Part shown: positions 1,902 through 41,881 of the stretch, piece after piece
How positions within the stretch are numbered: the first letter of the stretch is position 1
How the letters are laid out: every line of letters starts with the position of its first letter
NCBI RefSeq assembly: GCF_028864635.1
Contig: NZ_CP104850.1
Coordinates: 1,432,001-1,496,000, forward strand
Direction of reading: 5' to 3'
Length of the DNA: 64,000 nt
Origin: Cloacibacterium sp. TD35
GTDB taxonomy: Bacteria > Bacteroidota > Bacteroidia > Flavobacteriales > Weeksellaceae
The notes under the pieces: model-generated
Databases searched by the model: none
Seen by the model: the letters and a program-made list of their open reading frames with translations, nothing else
What the model was told of the DNA's origin: nothing
Made by a program: the position numbers and the translations under genes

Positions 1902-1922
1902 TCTTGTCAAAAAAGAAAAGTT

Positions 1923-2642
1923 ATGGAAATAAAAGACAAAACAATAGGCGGAATAGTAGCCGAAGATTTCAGAACAGCTGCTGTATTTAAAAAATACGGA
2001 ATCGATTTTTGTTGCAAAGGAAATAGAAGTATAGAAGAAGTTTGTGCAGTGAAAAAGAAAAATCCAGAAGATATTTATGCAGATTTAGAAAGAGTAACGC
2101 AAAATGCAACTCAGAACATCGATTTTAAAACTTGGGATTTAGATTTATTATCAGATTATATCGAGAAAACGCACCACCGTTATGTAGAAGAAAAAACCAT
2201 TTACTTGCTTCAGTTTTTAGATAAATTAAGAAGAGTAAAAGGCGATAGATATCCAGAGTTAATCGAGGTTCACGAATTGTTTAAACAATCTGCCGAAGAT
2301 TTAGGTGCTCACATGAAAAAAGAAGAATTGGTGTTATTCCCATTCATTAGAAACATGGTAGAAGCAAAAAGAAGAGGCGTAGAATTGCCAAAAGCACATT
2401 TTGGCGCAGTAGAAAATCCAATTGAGATGATGAAGCATGAACATGAAAATGAAGGAGATCGTTTCGAAAAAATTGCCCAACTTTTAAATCAATATATACC
2501 ACCTGCAGATGCATGTAATACGCATCAGGTTACTTATAAGATGCTTCAGGAATTCGAAGAAAATTTACATACTCATATCCATTTAGAGAATAATATTCTG
2601 TTTCCAAAAGCAATTGAGTTGCAAAAAGAATTGCAAAATTAA
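1923..2642 (+). CDS. ric: Iron-sulfur cluster repair di-iron protein (RIC/ScdA/YtfE family)
   Basis: A 239-residue protein that repairs nitrosative or oxidative damage to iron-sulfur clusters. Residues 1-60 form the ScdA N-terminal (DUF542) domain, including AEDFRTAAVF and the DFCC motif. From about residue 80 onward lies a hemerythrin-like domain with His and Glu ligands (for example KTHHRYVEE, HMKKEE, KHEHENEG and HTHIHLENN). The chosen ATG gives the usual start of the family and lies downstream of the promoter. Its neighbour is a three-cysteine Rrf2 regulator, so a stress-responsive unit is likely. The gene ends before a strong bidirectional terminator. Confidence 0.95.
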   Translation: MEIKDKTIGGIVAEDFRTAAVFKKYGIDFCCKGNRSIEEVCAVKKKNPEDIYADLERVTQNATQNIDFKTWDLDLLSDYIEKTHHRYVEEKTIYLLQFLDKLRRVKGDRYPELIEVHELFKQSAEDLGAHMKKEELVLFPFIRNMVEAKRRGVELPKAHFGAVENPIEMMKHEHENEGDRFEKIAQLLNQYIPPADACNTHQVTYKMLQEFEENLHTHIHLENNILFPKAIELQKELQN

Positions 2643-38269: not shown

Positions 38270-39136
38270 ATGAAGTTTTTCATTATAATTCCCGCTCACA
38301 ACGAAGAAAAAAACATGCTTCCATGTTTAGAATCGCTGAAAAATCAGACGTTTCAGGATTTTAAATGCGTAATTGTGAACGATGGCTCTACGGATAAAAC
38401 CCAAGAAATTGCAGAAAAATTTATTAATAATGTCACATTGAGCGGAGTCGAAGCATCAAGTTTCAAAGTTTTAAATTTAGAAAAATCCGAACATCAACCC
38501 GGTGCAAAAGTCGTGAGAACTTTTAATAAAGGTTTAGAAACTGAGAATTTAGAAGAATACGATGTGGTTTGTAAATTCGATGCAGACATTATTTTCTCTG
38601 CTGATTATTTAGAAAAAGTAAATGAAGTGTACGAGAAAAATCCAAAAGCAGGAATGGTTTCTGGTTTGGTTTACATTGAAAAAAATGGAGAATGGGTTTT
38701 CGAAAATCTGTCTTCCAAAAATCACGTTCGAGGTCCTATAAAGTCTTATCGAAAAGAATTATTTCTTAAAATGAAAGGTTTGAGAGCGGTTCTCGGTTGG
38801 GATAATATAGATGTGATGCTGTGTAAAATGCACGGATTTGAAACGGTAACAATTCAAGAGCTTTGTGTGAAACATCTTCGCCCAACAGCCTATAAATATA
38901 AATCTCAAAAAGCCCAGAAATTGGGAGAATATTTTTACAATATTGGTCTTAATTTTCCTTTAGCTGTGATTTCTTCAGCGAAATCTTCTTGGAAAAATAA
39001 ATCGGTTTCAGAGTTTTTTATCACCATGAAATCATTTTTGAATCAGAAAAATCCTAGAGTTTTAAGCCAAGAAGAAATTGCATTTATCAGAAATTTGAGA
39101 TGGAATGAAATGTTTAAAAAAATTATGAAATCATAA
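38270..39136 (+). CDS. Glycosyltransferase family 2 with an in-frame repeat insertion
   Basis: A 288-residue GT-A enzyme: FIIIPAHNEEKNM, VNDGSTDKT, FDADIIF (DxD) and GWDNIDVMLCKMHG near residue 180. Residues about 54-64 (NVTLSGVEASS) do not look like family sequence and are encoded by a short palindromic repeat (38432-38454), so the gene seems to have taken up a repeat without loss of frame. The insertion lies in a loop between the nucleotide-binding strands, a tolerant place. It sits in the second glycan locus with 3-nt gaps on both sides. Sugar unknown. Confidence 0.9.
   Translation: MKFFIIIPAHNEEKNMLPCLESLKNQTFQDFKCVIVNDGSTDKTQEIAEKFINNVTLSGVEASSFKVLNLEKSEHQPGAKVVRTFNKGLETENLEEYDVVCKFDADIIFSADYLEKVNEVYEKNPKAGMVSGLVYIEKNGEWVFENLSSKNHVRGPIKSYRKELFLKMKGLRAVLGWDNIDVMLCKMHGFETVTIQELCVKHLRPTAYKYKSQKAQKLGEYFYNIGLNFPLAVISSAKSSWKNKSVSEFFITMKSFLNQKNPRVLSQEEIAFIRNLRWNEMFKKIMKS
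38432..38454 (-). repeat. Short palindromic repeat copy inside the GT2 gene
   Basis: On the minus strand it contains TTCGACTCCGCTCA (38452-38439), two mismatches from TTCGGCTTCGCTCA at 40967-40980. Both sit in coding regions. Such TTCGnCTnCGCTCAnnATGACA units are, from memory, widespread in Bacteroidota genomes. Confidence 0.75.
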
Positions 39137-39139
39137 AAT

Positions 39140-40804
39140 ATGAAAAACCTACAAATATTCTTTTTACTATTCTTCGGATTGTTTTCCGCACAGAAAAAAG
39201 CAGATTTAATTGTTTACAATGCTAAAATTTATACGGTAAATCAAAACTTTGATGTTGCTGAAGTCATGGCGATTTCCAAGGGGAAAATTGTAGCCATTGG
39301 AGGAAAAGAAATACTGAAAAAATACACCGCTACTCAAAAAATTGATGCTCAAGGAAAGCCCGTTTATCCAGGTTTTATAGATGCTCATTGCCATTTTACA
39401 GGCTATGCAACAGACCGTTGGAAAAGTGATTTGGTAGGAACTCAATCTTGGGAAGAAATTGTAGAAAAAATCAAAAAATACAGTGAAACGGCTCCTAAAT
39501 TTTGGTTATATGGAAGAGGCTGGGATCAGAATGATTGGGCGGTAAAAGAATATCCAACCAAAGAAAAACTAGATGAATTGTTTCCTAATCGTCCGGTTTA
39601 TTTAAAAAGAGTGGATGGTCACGCTGCCATAGCCAATCAAAAAGCCTTGGATTTGGCTAAAATTTCAACCGAAACTAAAGTTTTGGGAGGAGATATTGAA
39701 CAGAAAAACGGAAAATTAACCGGAATTTTAGTTGATAATGCCATGGATTTGGTAGAAAAAGTGATTCCAGAGATTGAAGATGATTTGGCAATCAAATATT
39801 TCGGGGAGTTGCAAAAAGAATGCTTTGCTTTTGGTTTAACTTCTCTTCACGATTGTGGTATTTCTGAACATACTTTGTCACTTTTAGAAAAATCCCAACA
39901 GCAGAAAGTTTTAAAAATGAATGTTTTTGCGCTTTTAAGTGACAATCCTGATTATTATGAAAAATGGACTAAAAAAGGTCGATACACAAACGGAAAAATC
40001 ACTGTTGGTGGTTTTAAAGTTTATGCAGACGGCGCTTTGGGAAGTAGAGGTGCGTGTTTGTTAAGTGATTATCATGATAAACCAAAATGGAGAGGTTTTC
40101 TATTAAGCGAAAAATCTCATTTTGAAAATTTAGCTAAAAAATTGGTTAATAGCAATTTACAGATGTGTACTCATGCCATTGGTGATTCTGCGAATAGAGA
40201 AATTCTGAAAATTTATGGTGATGTTTTAAAAGGCAAAAACGATAAAAGATGGAGAATAGAACACGCACAAATTGTAAATCCTGCTGATTTTCAGTATTTT
40301 GGAGAGTATAATATCGTTCCGTCTGTTCAGCCAACTCACGCCACTTCTGACATGTATTGGGCGGAAGAAAGATTGGGAAGTGAACGCATTAAAACGGCGT
40401 ATGCTTATCAAGATTTGTTGAAGCAGAACGGTTGGGTTGCATTGGGAACTGATTTTCCTGTGGAAGATATCAATCCGTTTAAAACGTTTTTGGCTGCAGT
40501 AGCAAGAAAAGATGCGCAAAATTATCCTGAAAATGGTTTCCAGAAAGAAAATGCCTTAAGCAGAGAACAAACCTTAAGAGGAATGACAATTTGGGCTGCA
40601 AAATCGGTATTTCAGGAAAAAGAAAGAGGAAGTTTAGAAGTGGGAAAAAATGCAGATTTTATAGTTTTAGATAGAGATTTAATGAGTATTGATGAAAAGT
40701 TTATACTTAATGTAAATGTTGTATCCACTTTTATTGATGGGAAGAAAGTTTTTGATAATGGTTTATTAGAAGTGCCAGAACCAATTAGAAATCCTAATAA
40801 TTAG
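39140..40804 (+). CDS. Exported metal-dependent amidohydrolase (YtcJ/NfdA type)
   Basis: A 554-residue amidohydrolase-superfamily enzyme with a signal peptide (residues 1-18, FGLFSAQ). Metal motifs include PGFIDAHCHFTGY near residue 80, GRGWDQNDW, CTHAIGDSANREILKIY (His), WRIEHAQIV (His) and LGTDFPVED (Asp). This subgroup includes NfdA and YtcJ, of broad or unclear substrates. Its place among glycan genes with a 3-nt gap upstream and a 6-nt gap downstream may be accidental. The export signal suggests a periplasmic substrate. Confidence 0.92.
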   Translation: MKNLQIFFLLFFGLFSAQKKADLIVYNAKIYTVNQNFDVAEVMAISKGKIVAIGGKEILKKYTATQKIDAQGKPVYPGFIDAHCHFTGYATDRWKSDLVGTQSWEEIVEKIKKYSETAPKFWLYGRGWDQNDWAVKEYPTKEKLDELFPNRPVYLKRVDGHAAIANQKALDLAKISTETKVLGGDIEQKNGKLTGILVDNAMDLVEKVIPEIEDDLAIKYFGELQKECFAFGLTSLHDCGISEHTLSLLEKSQQQKVLKMNVFALLSDNPDYYEKWTKKGRYTNGKITVGGFKVYADGALGSRGACLLSDYHDKPKWRGFLLSEKSHFENLAKKLVNSNLQMCTHAIGDSANREILKIYGDVLKGKNDKRWRIEHAQIVNPADFQYFGEYNIVPSVQPTHATSDMYWAEERLGSERIKTAYAYQDLLKQNGWVALGTDFPVEDINPFKTFLAAVARKDAQNYPENGFQKENALSREQTLRGMTIWAAKSVFQEKERGSLEVGKNADFIVLDRDLMSIDEKFILNVNVVSTFIDGKKVFDNGLLEVPEPIRNPNN

Positions 40805-40840
40805 ATTCATTTGAAACATTTAAATAATGAATTCAGAAAG

Positions 40841-41881
40841 TTGAAAAAAATCGCTTACATAGAACTCGATACTCACGCAGAAATTGCGCTGAATTTTATG
40901 GAATTAATGAATGATTCCGTTGCATTTTCTGTGGATTATTATTTCAGCGAAAAGATTCTGAGATTCTTCGGCTTCGCTCAGAATGACAAATTGCCTGAAA
41001 ATATCTTTAAAGCGACACCAGAAAAACTTTTACAACAACTATCAACCAACAACTATCAATTAATTATCATCGGAACGGTTCATCGTTATTTTAATGTTTT
41101 TGAGAAAGTTGTGGAACAATTCAATACTTCGATTATTTGTCATAATTTGAATTTTTTGAAGGCTTCAAACTTTGATTTGTTGAGTTCTATTTTCAAGGAA
41201 GATTTTCAATATCGATTAAAATTATTGTTGAAAGATGGTTTGTTGAGTAAGTCAAAAGTTTACAAAAAAGCAAAAAATCTTTTGGTTTTAGACCAGACTT
41301 TGGCAAAAGGAACTTATAAAAATCTTCCCATTTTTTATACCAAATTTTCTGAAAAATCAGATAACCCAATATTTACAATAGTCATTCCGGGAGCGGTTTC
41401 CCAGAAAAGAAGAGATTATGAAAGGGTTTTGAAATCAATTATAAAATTTCATTTTCCTTTCGAAATTATATTTCTAGGAAAAGCACAAGGAAAAGAATTA
41501 GAAATACTTCAAGATTTTGAACAATCAAAACCAGAAAATATTTCCATAAAATATTTCACAGAAAAAGTTCCACAAGATGTTTTTGATGATTATATGCAAA
41601 AAGCAGATATTTTGTGGTGCCCTATCCAACAAGAAACGGAGTTTCTTAGCCAAAAAGAACTCTATGGAATAACCAAAATGAGCGGAAACATTGGCGATGC
41701 AATTAAATTCGGCAAGTTGGCGATTTTTCCAGAAAATTATCCTTCAAAATATTCCTTTATTGTTCCTGAAAAAGGAGGTTTGGAAGACTTTCTATTTACA
41801 AAAAAAGATGTGGATTTTTCAGATTTCAGCAAAGAAAAAGTCTTACAAGAGCTAGAAAAAACTATTTTTGCACTCTTATAA
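40841..41881 (+). CDS. Glycosyltransferase-like protein with an in-frame repeat insertion
   Basis: About 346 residues from TTG 40841 (MKKIAYIELDTH); an upstream TTG at 40811 would add ten residues. No ATG fits. The C-terminal half looks like GT-B (FTIVIPGAVSQKRRDYERVLKSI, IIFLGKAQGKELE, ADILWCPIQQETEF, KMSGNIGDAIKFGKLAIFP), as in some LPS glycosyltransferases. Near the N-terminus, KILRFFGFAQNDK is encoded by a palindromic repeat (40955-40988). Peptides like RFFGFAQND are the typical translation of this repeat and are not part of the enzyme family. It lies between an amidohydrolase and an FkbM methyltransferase gene. Confidence 0.75.
   Translation: MKKIAYIELDTHAEIALNFMELMNDSVAFSVDYYFSEKILRFFGFAQNDKLPENIFKATPEKLLQQLSTNNYQLIIIGTVHRYFNVFEKVVEQFNTSIICHNLNFLKASNFDLLSSIFKEDFQYRLKLLLKDGLLSKSKVYKKAKNLLVLDQTLAKGTYKNLPIFYTKFSEKSDNPIFTIVIPGAVSQKRRDYERVLKSIIKFHFPFEIIFLGKAQGKELEILQDFEQSKPENISIKYFTEKVPQDVFDDYMQKADILWCPIQQETEFLSQKELYGITKMSGNIGDAIKFGKLAIFPENYPSKYSFIVPEKGGLEDFLFTKKDVDFSDFSKEKVLQELEKTIFALL
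40955..40988 (+). repeat. Palindromic repeat copy inside the glycosyltransferase-like gene
   Basis: Perfect arms ATTCTGAG (40955-40962) and CTCAGAAT (40977-40984) surround TTCGGCTTCG, and ATGACAAA follows. The core matches the reverse complement of the copy at 38439-38452 at 12 of 14 bases. Confidence 0.82.

Follow-up and report, generated by a model that had tools for sequence, protein, structure and literature searches.

Two short sequences, lying in opposite orientation within two protein-coding genes of the window (the whole 64,000-nt stretch of Cloacibacterium sp. TD35 DNA analysed here), are very probably copies of one very small, dispersed mobile hairpin of 24 nt that is tolerated within genes. 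The element recurs within the genus, stands in frame in many unrelated and unbroken genes, is present in some species and absent from others, and has compensated stems. In our view it is a mobile hairpin that genes tolerate and that decays slowly, and not a linker that has been domesticated.

Structure and abundance of the element

The element has the form GTCA-NNN-TGAGCGnAGnCGAA-N'N'N', which amounts to exactly eight codons and to which both window copies belong. It is composed of a tag (GTCA), a variable self-complementary stem of 3-4 bp and a constant 14-nt core, TTCGNCTNCGCTCA. Both window copies match this core exactly and agree with each other at 12 of 14 bases; this figure and the core positions listed in Table 1 confirm the earlier note from which the analysis started. 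The exact core is found six times in the 2.6-Mb genome that contains the window, against none for the reversed pattern, and 160 times in seven genomes of the genus Cloacibacterium, where the reversed controls again gave none.

The 156 exact cores analysed (four of the 27 copies in G005 were left out) fall into about 69 sites, about 37 of which hold the element in at least two genomes or species, and the suggestion that such insertions are recent thus holds only in part. About 31 sites, with 65 copies, lie inside open reading frames that span 120 aa or more and leave 20 codons to each side of the core, a definition to which disrupted genes are invisible. The clustering made at least one false merge and probably a second, so that 69, 37 and 31 are approximate; at one of the 31 intragenic sites (C93 in G004) the stem is unpaired and the match is probably due to chance. 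The intragenic share is below expectation if interior coding sequence is set at 78%, the value of the window, but the statement that such repeats are normally intergenic does not apply to the Cloacibacterium element. The tag is GTCA at 38 of the 69 sites; the tag position shows TGTC at 36 sites and CGTC at two, and GTC is missing there at the other 31; neither GTAG nor GTGG is among the eight commonest tags listed for these sites. The host genes, which include those for TilS, RnpA, MurE, HutI, a MenE-like protein, an E2 acyltransferase and a rhodanese, are functionally unrelated to one another.

The two copies in the window

Table 1. Positions in the window of the two element copies, their host genes and the intervening gene
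Feature	Position	Strand	Description
Gene A	38270..39136	+	family-2 glycosyltransferase (PF00535), by domain match; hosts copy 1
Copy 1 (site A1)	38432..38455	+	GTCA CAT TGAGCGGAGTCGAA GCA; core 38439-38452, minus strand
Amidohydrolase gene	39140..40804	+	between genes A and B (context)
Gene B	40811..41881	+	356-aa protein without Pfam family; hosts copy 2
Copy 2 (site B1)	40964..40987	-	GTCA TTC TGAGCGAAGCCGAA GAA on the minus strand; core 40967-40980, plus strand

Both copies are read without a frame break: copy 1 is translated as VTLSGVEA (residues 55-62 of gene A), and copy 2 encodes FFGFAQND on the plus strand (gene B, residues 52-59). Aligned with homologues, both appear as interruptions (L022 was left out of one alignment). 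The claim of one repeat family inserted in frame in two genes is borne out, since there are homologues without these residues and more copies exist; homologues carrying the same residues with unrelated codons were not found. The description of both hosts as glycosyltransferase-like stands for gene A, whereas gene B has no glycosyltransferase domain above threshold, with weak Glyco_trans_1_4 matches in three of eight alignment members. Similarly, "palindromic" suits copy 2, which has a paired stem and in which the arm CTCAGAAT can form a further 8-bp pairing with ATTCTGAG immediately upstream, but the element's own stem is only about 4 bp long and has decayed in copy 1 of the window species; in G003, G005 and G006 the copy 1 stem is paired (CGC/GCG).

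Site A1 is filled in four of seven species and B1 in three of seven. Some Cloacibacterium species without these inserts have others at different loops of the same genes: relatives of gene A carry repeat insertions at a second loop (site A2, at about residue 139), and relatives of gene B at three more sites (B2, B3 and B4). Judged from sequence alignments, the inserts would sit in protein loops.

Y1 transposases and the mobiliser

A classical REP would be mobilised by a Y1 (RAYT) transposase, an explanation that we consider rather unlikely here. Core copy number rises with the number of PF01797 matches over 79 genomes (Spearman 0.57, uncorrected for relatedness or genome size), and in G003, G005 and G031 gene A is separated from the amidohydrolase gene by a Y1-transposase-like gene, with a match placed there by coordinates in G010; in G003 and G005 (loci L157 and L159), about 0.8 kb separates this gene from the A1 copy. 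The window genome has six copies and no Y1 match, and no Y1-transposase-like gene between gene A and the amidohydrolase gene. However, the local gene carries its own GTAG-type inverted repeats and is unsupported as the mobiliser, and A1 is filled also in G000 and G006, two genomes without a Y1 match in that interval. The core was absent from the fetched flanks of all 28 other Y1 loci scanned outside the gene A/B locus (27 distinct, L153 and L324 being the same gene; flank lengths, checked for 19 of the 28, ran from 0.2 to 1.7 kb), and four of the 18 genomes holding at least ten copies have no Y1 match. No mobilising enzyme was found among the PF01797 genes, the only ones examined as partners.

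Filled and empty sites

Fourteen insertions with an empty relative to hand, which are not a random sample, could be compared with their empty counterparts. The net gain was 9-21 nt in 13 of them and 27 nt in one, and never 24 nt; as it is almost always below 24, insertion usually costs target sequence. Target-site duplications, as looked for in a MITE, were not seen when filled and empty sites were compared by eye, although the flanks have diverged at several. Nor was a consistent match between stem and target seen by eye, and copying of the stem from the target is unsupported. The idea that empty sites are unusual hairpins found no support either (11 of 12 sites could be located; mean p 0.46 and Fisher p 0.22). 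Taken singly, MenE 247 (p 0.017) and RnpA (p 0.067) were striking in this comparison, but they do not carry the set as a whole.

We suggest that the element spreads as DNA, its hairpin probably being recognised in single-stranded form by shape and core and not by stem sequence. Landing would usually remove some target bases; within genes, only net multiples of three at protein-tolerant positions would survive, and the added codons would be tolerated and then drift. A more specific proposal, structure-only mobilisation by a kind of replacement that is not known for REPs, holds that a landing typically exchanges 3-15 nt of target for a unit of 24 nt whose stem is arbitrary but self-complementary, steadily rewriting the loops of housekeeping proteins across Bacteroidota. 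This seems to us unlikely, and is made less probable by the single 27-nt gain, which exceeds the length of the element.

Reading frames and the fate of the inserted codons

The earlier note had offered domesticated linker and tolerated insertion as two possible fates. Domestication, in which the peptides are useful in two glycosyltransferase-like proteins and were hence kept, would be consistent with the sharing of A1, B1 and about 37 of the 69 sites among species. The frames are also used unequally at the intragenic sites (14, 7, 6, 3 and 1), the commonest giving Ser/Thr-rich peptides (14 of 30 without the doubtful site, chi-square p 0.034). Yet four frames and both orientations are in use and yield unrelated peptides, so that the conserved unit is the DNA and not the peptide; one MenE loop holds the element in one orientation in G002 and in the other in G004. 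TilS has an intact copy in G002 and G003 and a decayed one, still in frame, in G005 and G006, whereas the copy is absent from G000, G001 and G004; TilS copies have drifted into residues as different as FNSSQNG and LESAQND. In the rhodanese gene, a two-sided stem change altered two residues (the G005 gene being compared as raw DNA only, not as an open reading frame). Given the frames, the orientations, the patchy occupancy and the decay in TilS, tolerated insertion fits better, and domestication appears quite improbable.

Stem covariation

Stem positions 1, 2 and 3 are paired at 64, 64 and 62 of the 69 sites, where the maxima over 1000 shuffles were 51, 31 and 35 (average 19.5 for position 2). 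Pairing above chance is confined to positions 1-4, the arms being separated by the 14-nt core, and the 58 fully paired sites hold 18 distinct stems, hypervariable yet complementary. The hairpin is thermodynamically unremarkable (z about -0.2 to 0.9 for six copies), so the case for it rests on covariation. Stem changes at inherited sites were one-sided in 16 cases and two-sided in four, a few of each coming from wrongly merged sites; compensatory drift after insertion is therefore unsupported as the source of stem diversity. The covariation would also suit a regulatory RNA or DNA hairpin that is selected in the mRNA or the chromosome and whose coding location is incidental. This reading is very improbable, considering that inherited stems decay mostly one-sidedly, that the hosts are functionally unrelated and that no Rfam family reached the gathering threshold at the five loci searched.

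The view that the two sequences reflect a motif conserved in proteins, or similarity by chance, and not a repeat, we regard as already refuted by the 160 exact cores against none, the intergenic copies, the opposite orientations and the empty orthologues, although the mismatch-tolerant motif is not significantly enriched in the window (four core matches with up to two mismatches; shuffle mean 2.22, with 15 of 100 shuffles reaching four) and shows no clear excess in its genome (100 matches with at most three mismatches, against 88 in the control).

Implications

The best-known palindromes within protein-coding sequence are those of Rickettsia, for which the reduced selection of intracellular life could be blamed. 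On our reading of a tolerated mobile hairpin, a process like that of Rickettsia appears in wastewater flavobacteria, with an eight-codon unit that reaches RnpA, TilS and MurE, whose genes would generally be regarded as essential. Genomes in which one site is filled, empty or decayed offer a natural experiment in the tolerance of foreign peptides by proteins and in their erosion, and the compensated but hypervariable stems raise the testable question of the means by which repeats of this kind are recognised and copied.

Comparison with known systems

The GTAG REP/RAYT (TnpA-REP) systems are short tagged hairpins for which in-frame insertions within genes have been reported, and they include a Bacteroidetes subclass with atypical structures (PMC6006769). 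These REPs flank their transposase gene (PMC6006769), whereas the Cloacibacterium core was found beside none of the 28 Y1 loci scanned; the GTAG/GTGG tag of RAYT REPs also differs from the GTCA that prevails here.

Rickettsia palindromic elements lie in frame within unrelated protein genes and are apparently tolerated there, according to PMC2229807 and PMC10969869. The Cloacibacterium element resembles them in being in frame in several unrelated protein genes and missing from homologues. In contrast, the Rickettsia elements described in these papers are about 105-150 bp long, while ours is a 24-nt unit of Bacteroidota that uses four frames and has compensated variable stems; we liken the two by description and claim no membership.

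The CGTC-tagged REP super-family, as described in PMC3733652, has a one-end tag with a TGTC variant, an unpaired tail, intragenic units, complementary stem variants and no association with transposase genes; it spans five phyla, including Bacteroidetes, and RPE-4 and RPE-6 are classed there as CGTC repeats. The Cloacibacterium element shares with this family the unpaired tail, the intragenic units, the complementary stem variants and the lack of transposase association at PF01797 loci; the TGTC variant of the one-end tag stands at 36 of its 69 sites, while 31 have no GTC there. The stems of CGTC REPs, given there as 8-9 bp with loops of 4-5 nt, differ from the 3-5 bp and 14-nt core found here. 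Rickettsia palindromic elements and CGTC-type REPs, both also found in coding regions, are the closest known relatives in kind of the Cloacibacterium element.

Two in-frame copies of a hairpin repeat

The element is a 24-nt hairpin repeat composed of a GTCA tag, a variable self-complementary stem of 3-4 bp and a constant 14-nt core. An earlier note had claimed that one palindromic repeat family is inserted in frame into two glycosyltransferase-like genes; both cores lie where it had placed them and have 12 of 14 bases in common, and the phenomenon is real. The product of gene A, which hosts copy 1 at site A1, is a family-2 glycosyltransferase. Gene B, which hosts copy 2 at site B1, matches no Pfam family and has no convincing match among solved structures; weak glycosyltransferase-family matches were found in three of the eight members of its alignment (best E 0.0028), and its homologues occur in C. 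normanense and C. rupense within the genus and, more distantly, in Kaistella and Chryseobacterium. Within the window alone, a mismatch-tolerant motif is not significantly enriched. The whole genome (G000; 2,595,287 bases) holds 6 exact cores versus 0 for the reversed pattern, and shows no clear excess of cores with up to 3 mismatches (100 versus 88 in the control).

Element copies and associated features in the window and in fetched loci of relatives (L numbers)
Feature	Location	Strand	Remarks
Gene A	38270..39136	plus	window
Element copy 1	38432-38455	plus	24 nt, exactly eight codons, VTLSGVEA
Gene B	40811..41881	plus	window
Element copy 2	40964-40987	minus	24 nt, exactly eight codons, FFGFAQND
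Y1-transposase-like gene between gene A and amidohydrolase gene	L157:8687-9229		G003
Same	L159:8180-8653		G005; score just under cut-off
Same	L162:7899-8435		G031
Truncated gene B duplicate	L157:11067-11318		G003
Same	L159:10402-10653		G005
Flavo-1 RNA (RF01705) near the locus	L157:16062-16147	minus	G003
Same	L156:6149-6234	plus	
Y1 gene flanked by a repeat resembling the B3 repeat	L170:1353-2070		
Hairpins flanking a Y1 gene	L173:1469-1565 and 2023-2114		
Same	L169:1356-1447 and 1905-2002		

Sites, reading frames and host proteins

In seven Cloacibacterium genomes (G000-G006, in order) we counted 6, 10, 42, 38, 5, 27 and 32 exact cores, with controls at 0. The 156 of 160 cores covered by fetched sequence fall into about 69 sites, about 37 of them filled in more than one genome. 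We called a site intragenic when it fell inside an open ORF of 120 aa or longer and had 20 or more codons on either side, as 31 of the 69 do. Of the window, 78% is interior coding sequence; if this proportion holds for the other genomes, the element avoids genes (binomial p 3e-9), yet is far from excluded there. The intragenic sites are read in frames reverse-2 (14), reverse-0 (7), forward-1 (6), forward-2 (3) and reverse-1 (1). In the remaining forward frame the TGA of the core is always a stop, and in reverse-1 that of the tag is a stop whenever the tag is present; the stem of the single reverse-1 case is unpaired.

Twenty host proteins were scanned against NCBIfam and Pfam. TilS, RnpA, MurE, imidazolonepropionase HutI and a GlmM-type mutase score above curated cut-offs, and phosphoglycerate-dehydrogenase-like, MenE-like and mercaptopyruvate-sulfurtransferase-like (rhodanese) proteins and an E2 acyltransferase, in which the element directly follows the lipoyl domain, have a Pfam domain with sub-cut-off NCBIfam scores. 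Pfam further identifies an alpha-2-macroglobulin-like host with four sites, a P-type ATPase, an ABC-F-like ATPase, a chorismate-binding enzyme, a cytidylyltransferase-like protein, GH3, NA37, a group-1 glycosyltransferase and a UDP-sugar dehydrogenase; the L206 host has a weak NCBIfam match only.

Compensated stems

Stem positions 1-4 are complementary in 64, 64, 62 and 43 of the 69 sites, against shuffle means of 42.9, 19.5, 22.5 and 28.1 (maxima of 1000 shuffles 51, 31, 35 and 41), and pairing at positions 5-8 is at chance level. All three inner positions are paired in 58 sites, with 18 different stems among them. Three genomes of other families follow the same trend in small samples (12, 11 and 28 copies) uncorrected for relatedness, several positions merely equalling the shuffle maximum. 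Folded as single-stranded DNA, the hairpins are weak and no better than shuffles. Stem changes at inherited sites are one-sided in 16 cases versus two-sided in 4, a few of both stemming from wrongly merged sites. We infer that paired stems acquired their variety before or at insertion and that copies decay afterwards. Template switching has reportedly been proposed as a means of correcting hairpin arms (PMC8794818). The tabulated hairpins at L173 and L169 have differing yet complementary stems and adjoin a constant GAAATC-like tag, a layout of constant part and compensated stem as in the main element.

Filled and empty sites

In a codon alignment of the seven genomes, A1 and B1 are both filled in G000, G005 and G006; G003 has A1 filled but B1 empty, and G001, G002 and G004 have neither site filled. 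At A2, the second loop of gene A, the insert reads GFDSAQPDK in G002 and G006, and other repeat families occur there in G003 and G004. B2 carries the element in G002 and G006, and B4 carries DSSTSLRMT in G003. In G005 (L159), A2 and B2 have the same longer variant, with its mid-core replaced and the end YAQPDK, where G002 and G006 have the short form at both. The window species has no insertion at A2, B2, B3 or B4. At B3, G003 (L157) and G004 (L158) carry a different, second repeat in frame, G[CT]TCCGTAGGA[GA]C then GAAACGTTTGTAGA. The truncated duplicates, of 83 codons, lie upstream of full-length gene B and carry an FLGFAQND insert, which the full-length gene of G003, unlike its duplicate, lacks.

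Fourteen insertions could be compared with a relative that is empty at the site; an intact frame was required in both states, so net gains in multiples of three are expected. The gains are 21 nt at A1, 15 nt at A2 (G006 versus G001), 12 nt at B1, 9 nt at B2 and at B4, 18 and 9 nt in alpha-2-macroglobulin, 18 nt in rhodanese, 21 nt in MenE, 18 nt (G004) and 27 nt (G002) in its second loop, 9 nt in MurE, 21 nt in TilS and 18 nt in RnpA. Thirteen thus fall below the element's 24 nt, one exceeds it and none equals it; the cleanest case is rhodanese, with 24 bases in place of six. The frame requirement does not account for this shortfall, which may reflect trimming after insertion, and the 27-nt gain may include added flanking sequence. 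Among the seven genomes, G002 alone has the MurE insert, and one MenE loop holds the element in opposite orientations in G002 and G004.

Distribution and candidate mobiliser

At least one exact core occurs in 44 of 79 genomes searched, including the window's own, and in 252 of 395 Bacteroidota genomes. Since single matches per genome are about as common with the reversed control, copy number is the better measure: by hand count, 51 of the 395 have ten or more copies, and the control never exceeds three. Of the seven genus genomes, all but G000 have matches to the Y1 transposase domain (Y1_Tnp, PF01797). The Y1-like gene between gene A and the amidohydrolase gene, absent from the window, is bounded by its own GTAG-tagged inverted repeats in G003, G005 and G031 and lies about 0.8 kb from the A1 copy in G003 and G005; the relative G010 has an additional Y1 match there, placed by coordinates. 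Allowing one mismatch, the core was not found in 28 other Y1 loci scanned (27 distinct genes). Copy number correlates with Y1 matches (rho 0.57, uncorrected for kinship).

Comparison with known repeats

Six core sequences, searched as running text, were not found in the open-licence literature searched, nor was a description of the element found in titles and opening abstract text among the open-licence papers listed for intragenic palindromes and for Flavobacteria, Chryseobacterium and Cloacibacterium. In-frame REPs within transposase genes are reported in excerpts of PMC6006769. Excerpts of PMC3733652 describe GTAG and CGTC repeats within coding regions and note a TGTC tag variant and complementary stem variants, with no transposase link reported there for CGTC-type repeats. 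In its tag and its behaviour the Cloacibacterium element is similar to the CGTC repeats, but it falls outside their stem and loop definition and is therefore not filed as a member. It is best read as a mobile hairpin of very small size, defined by its structure, whose copies proteins tolerate and which decay once there, and it works like the Rickettsia elements (RPE) described in excerpts of PMC2229807 and PMC10969869.
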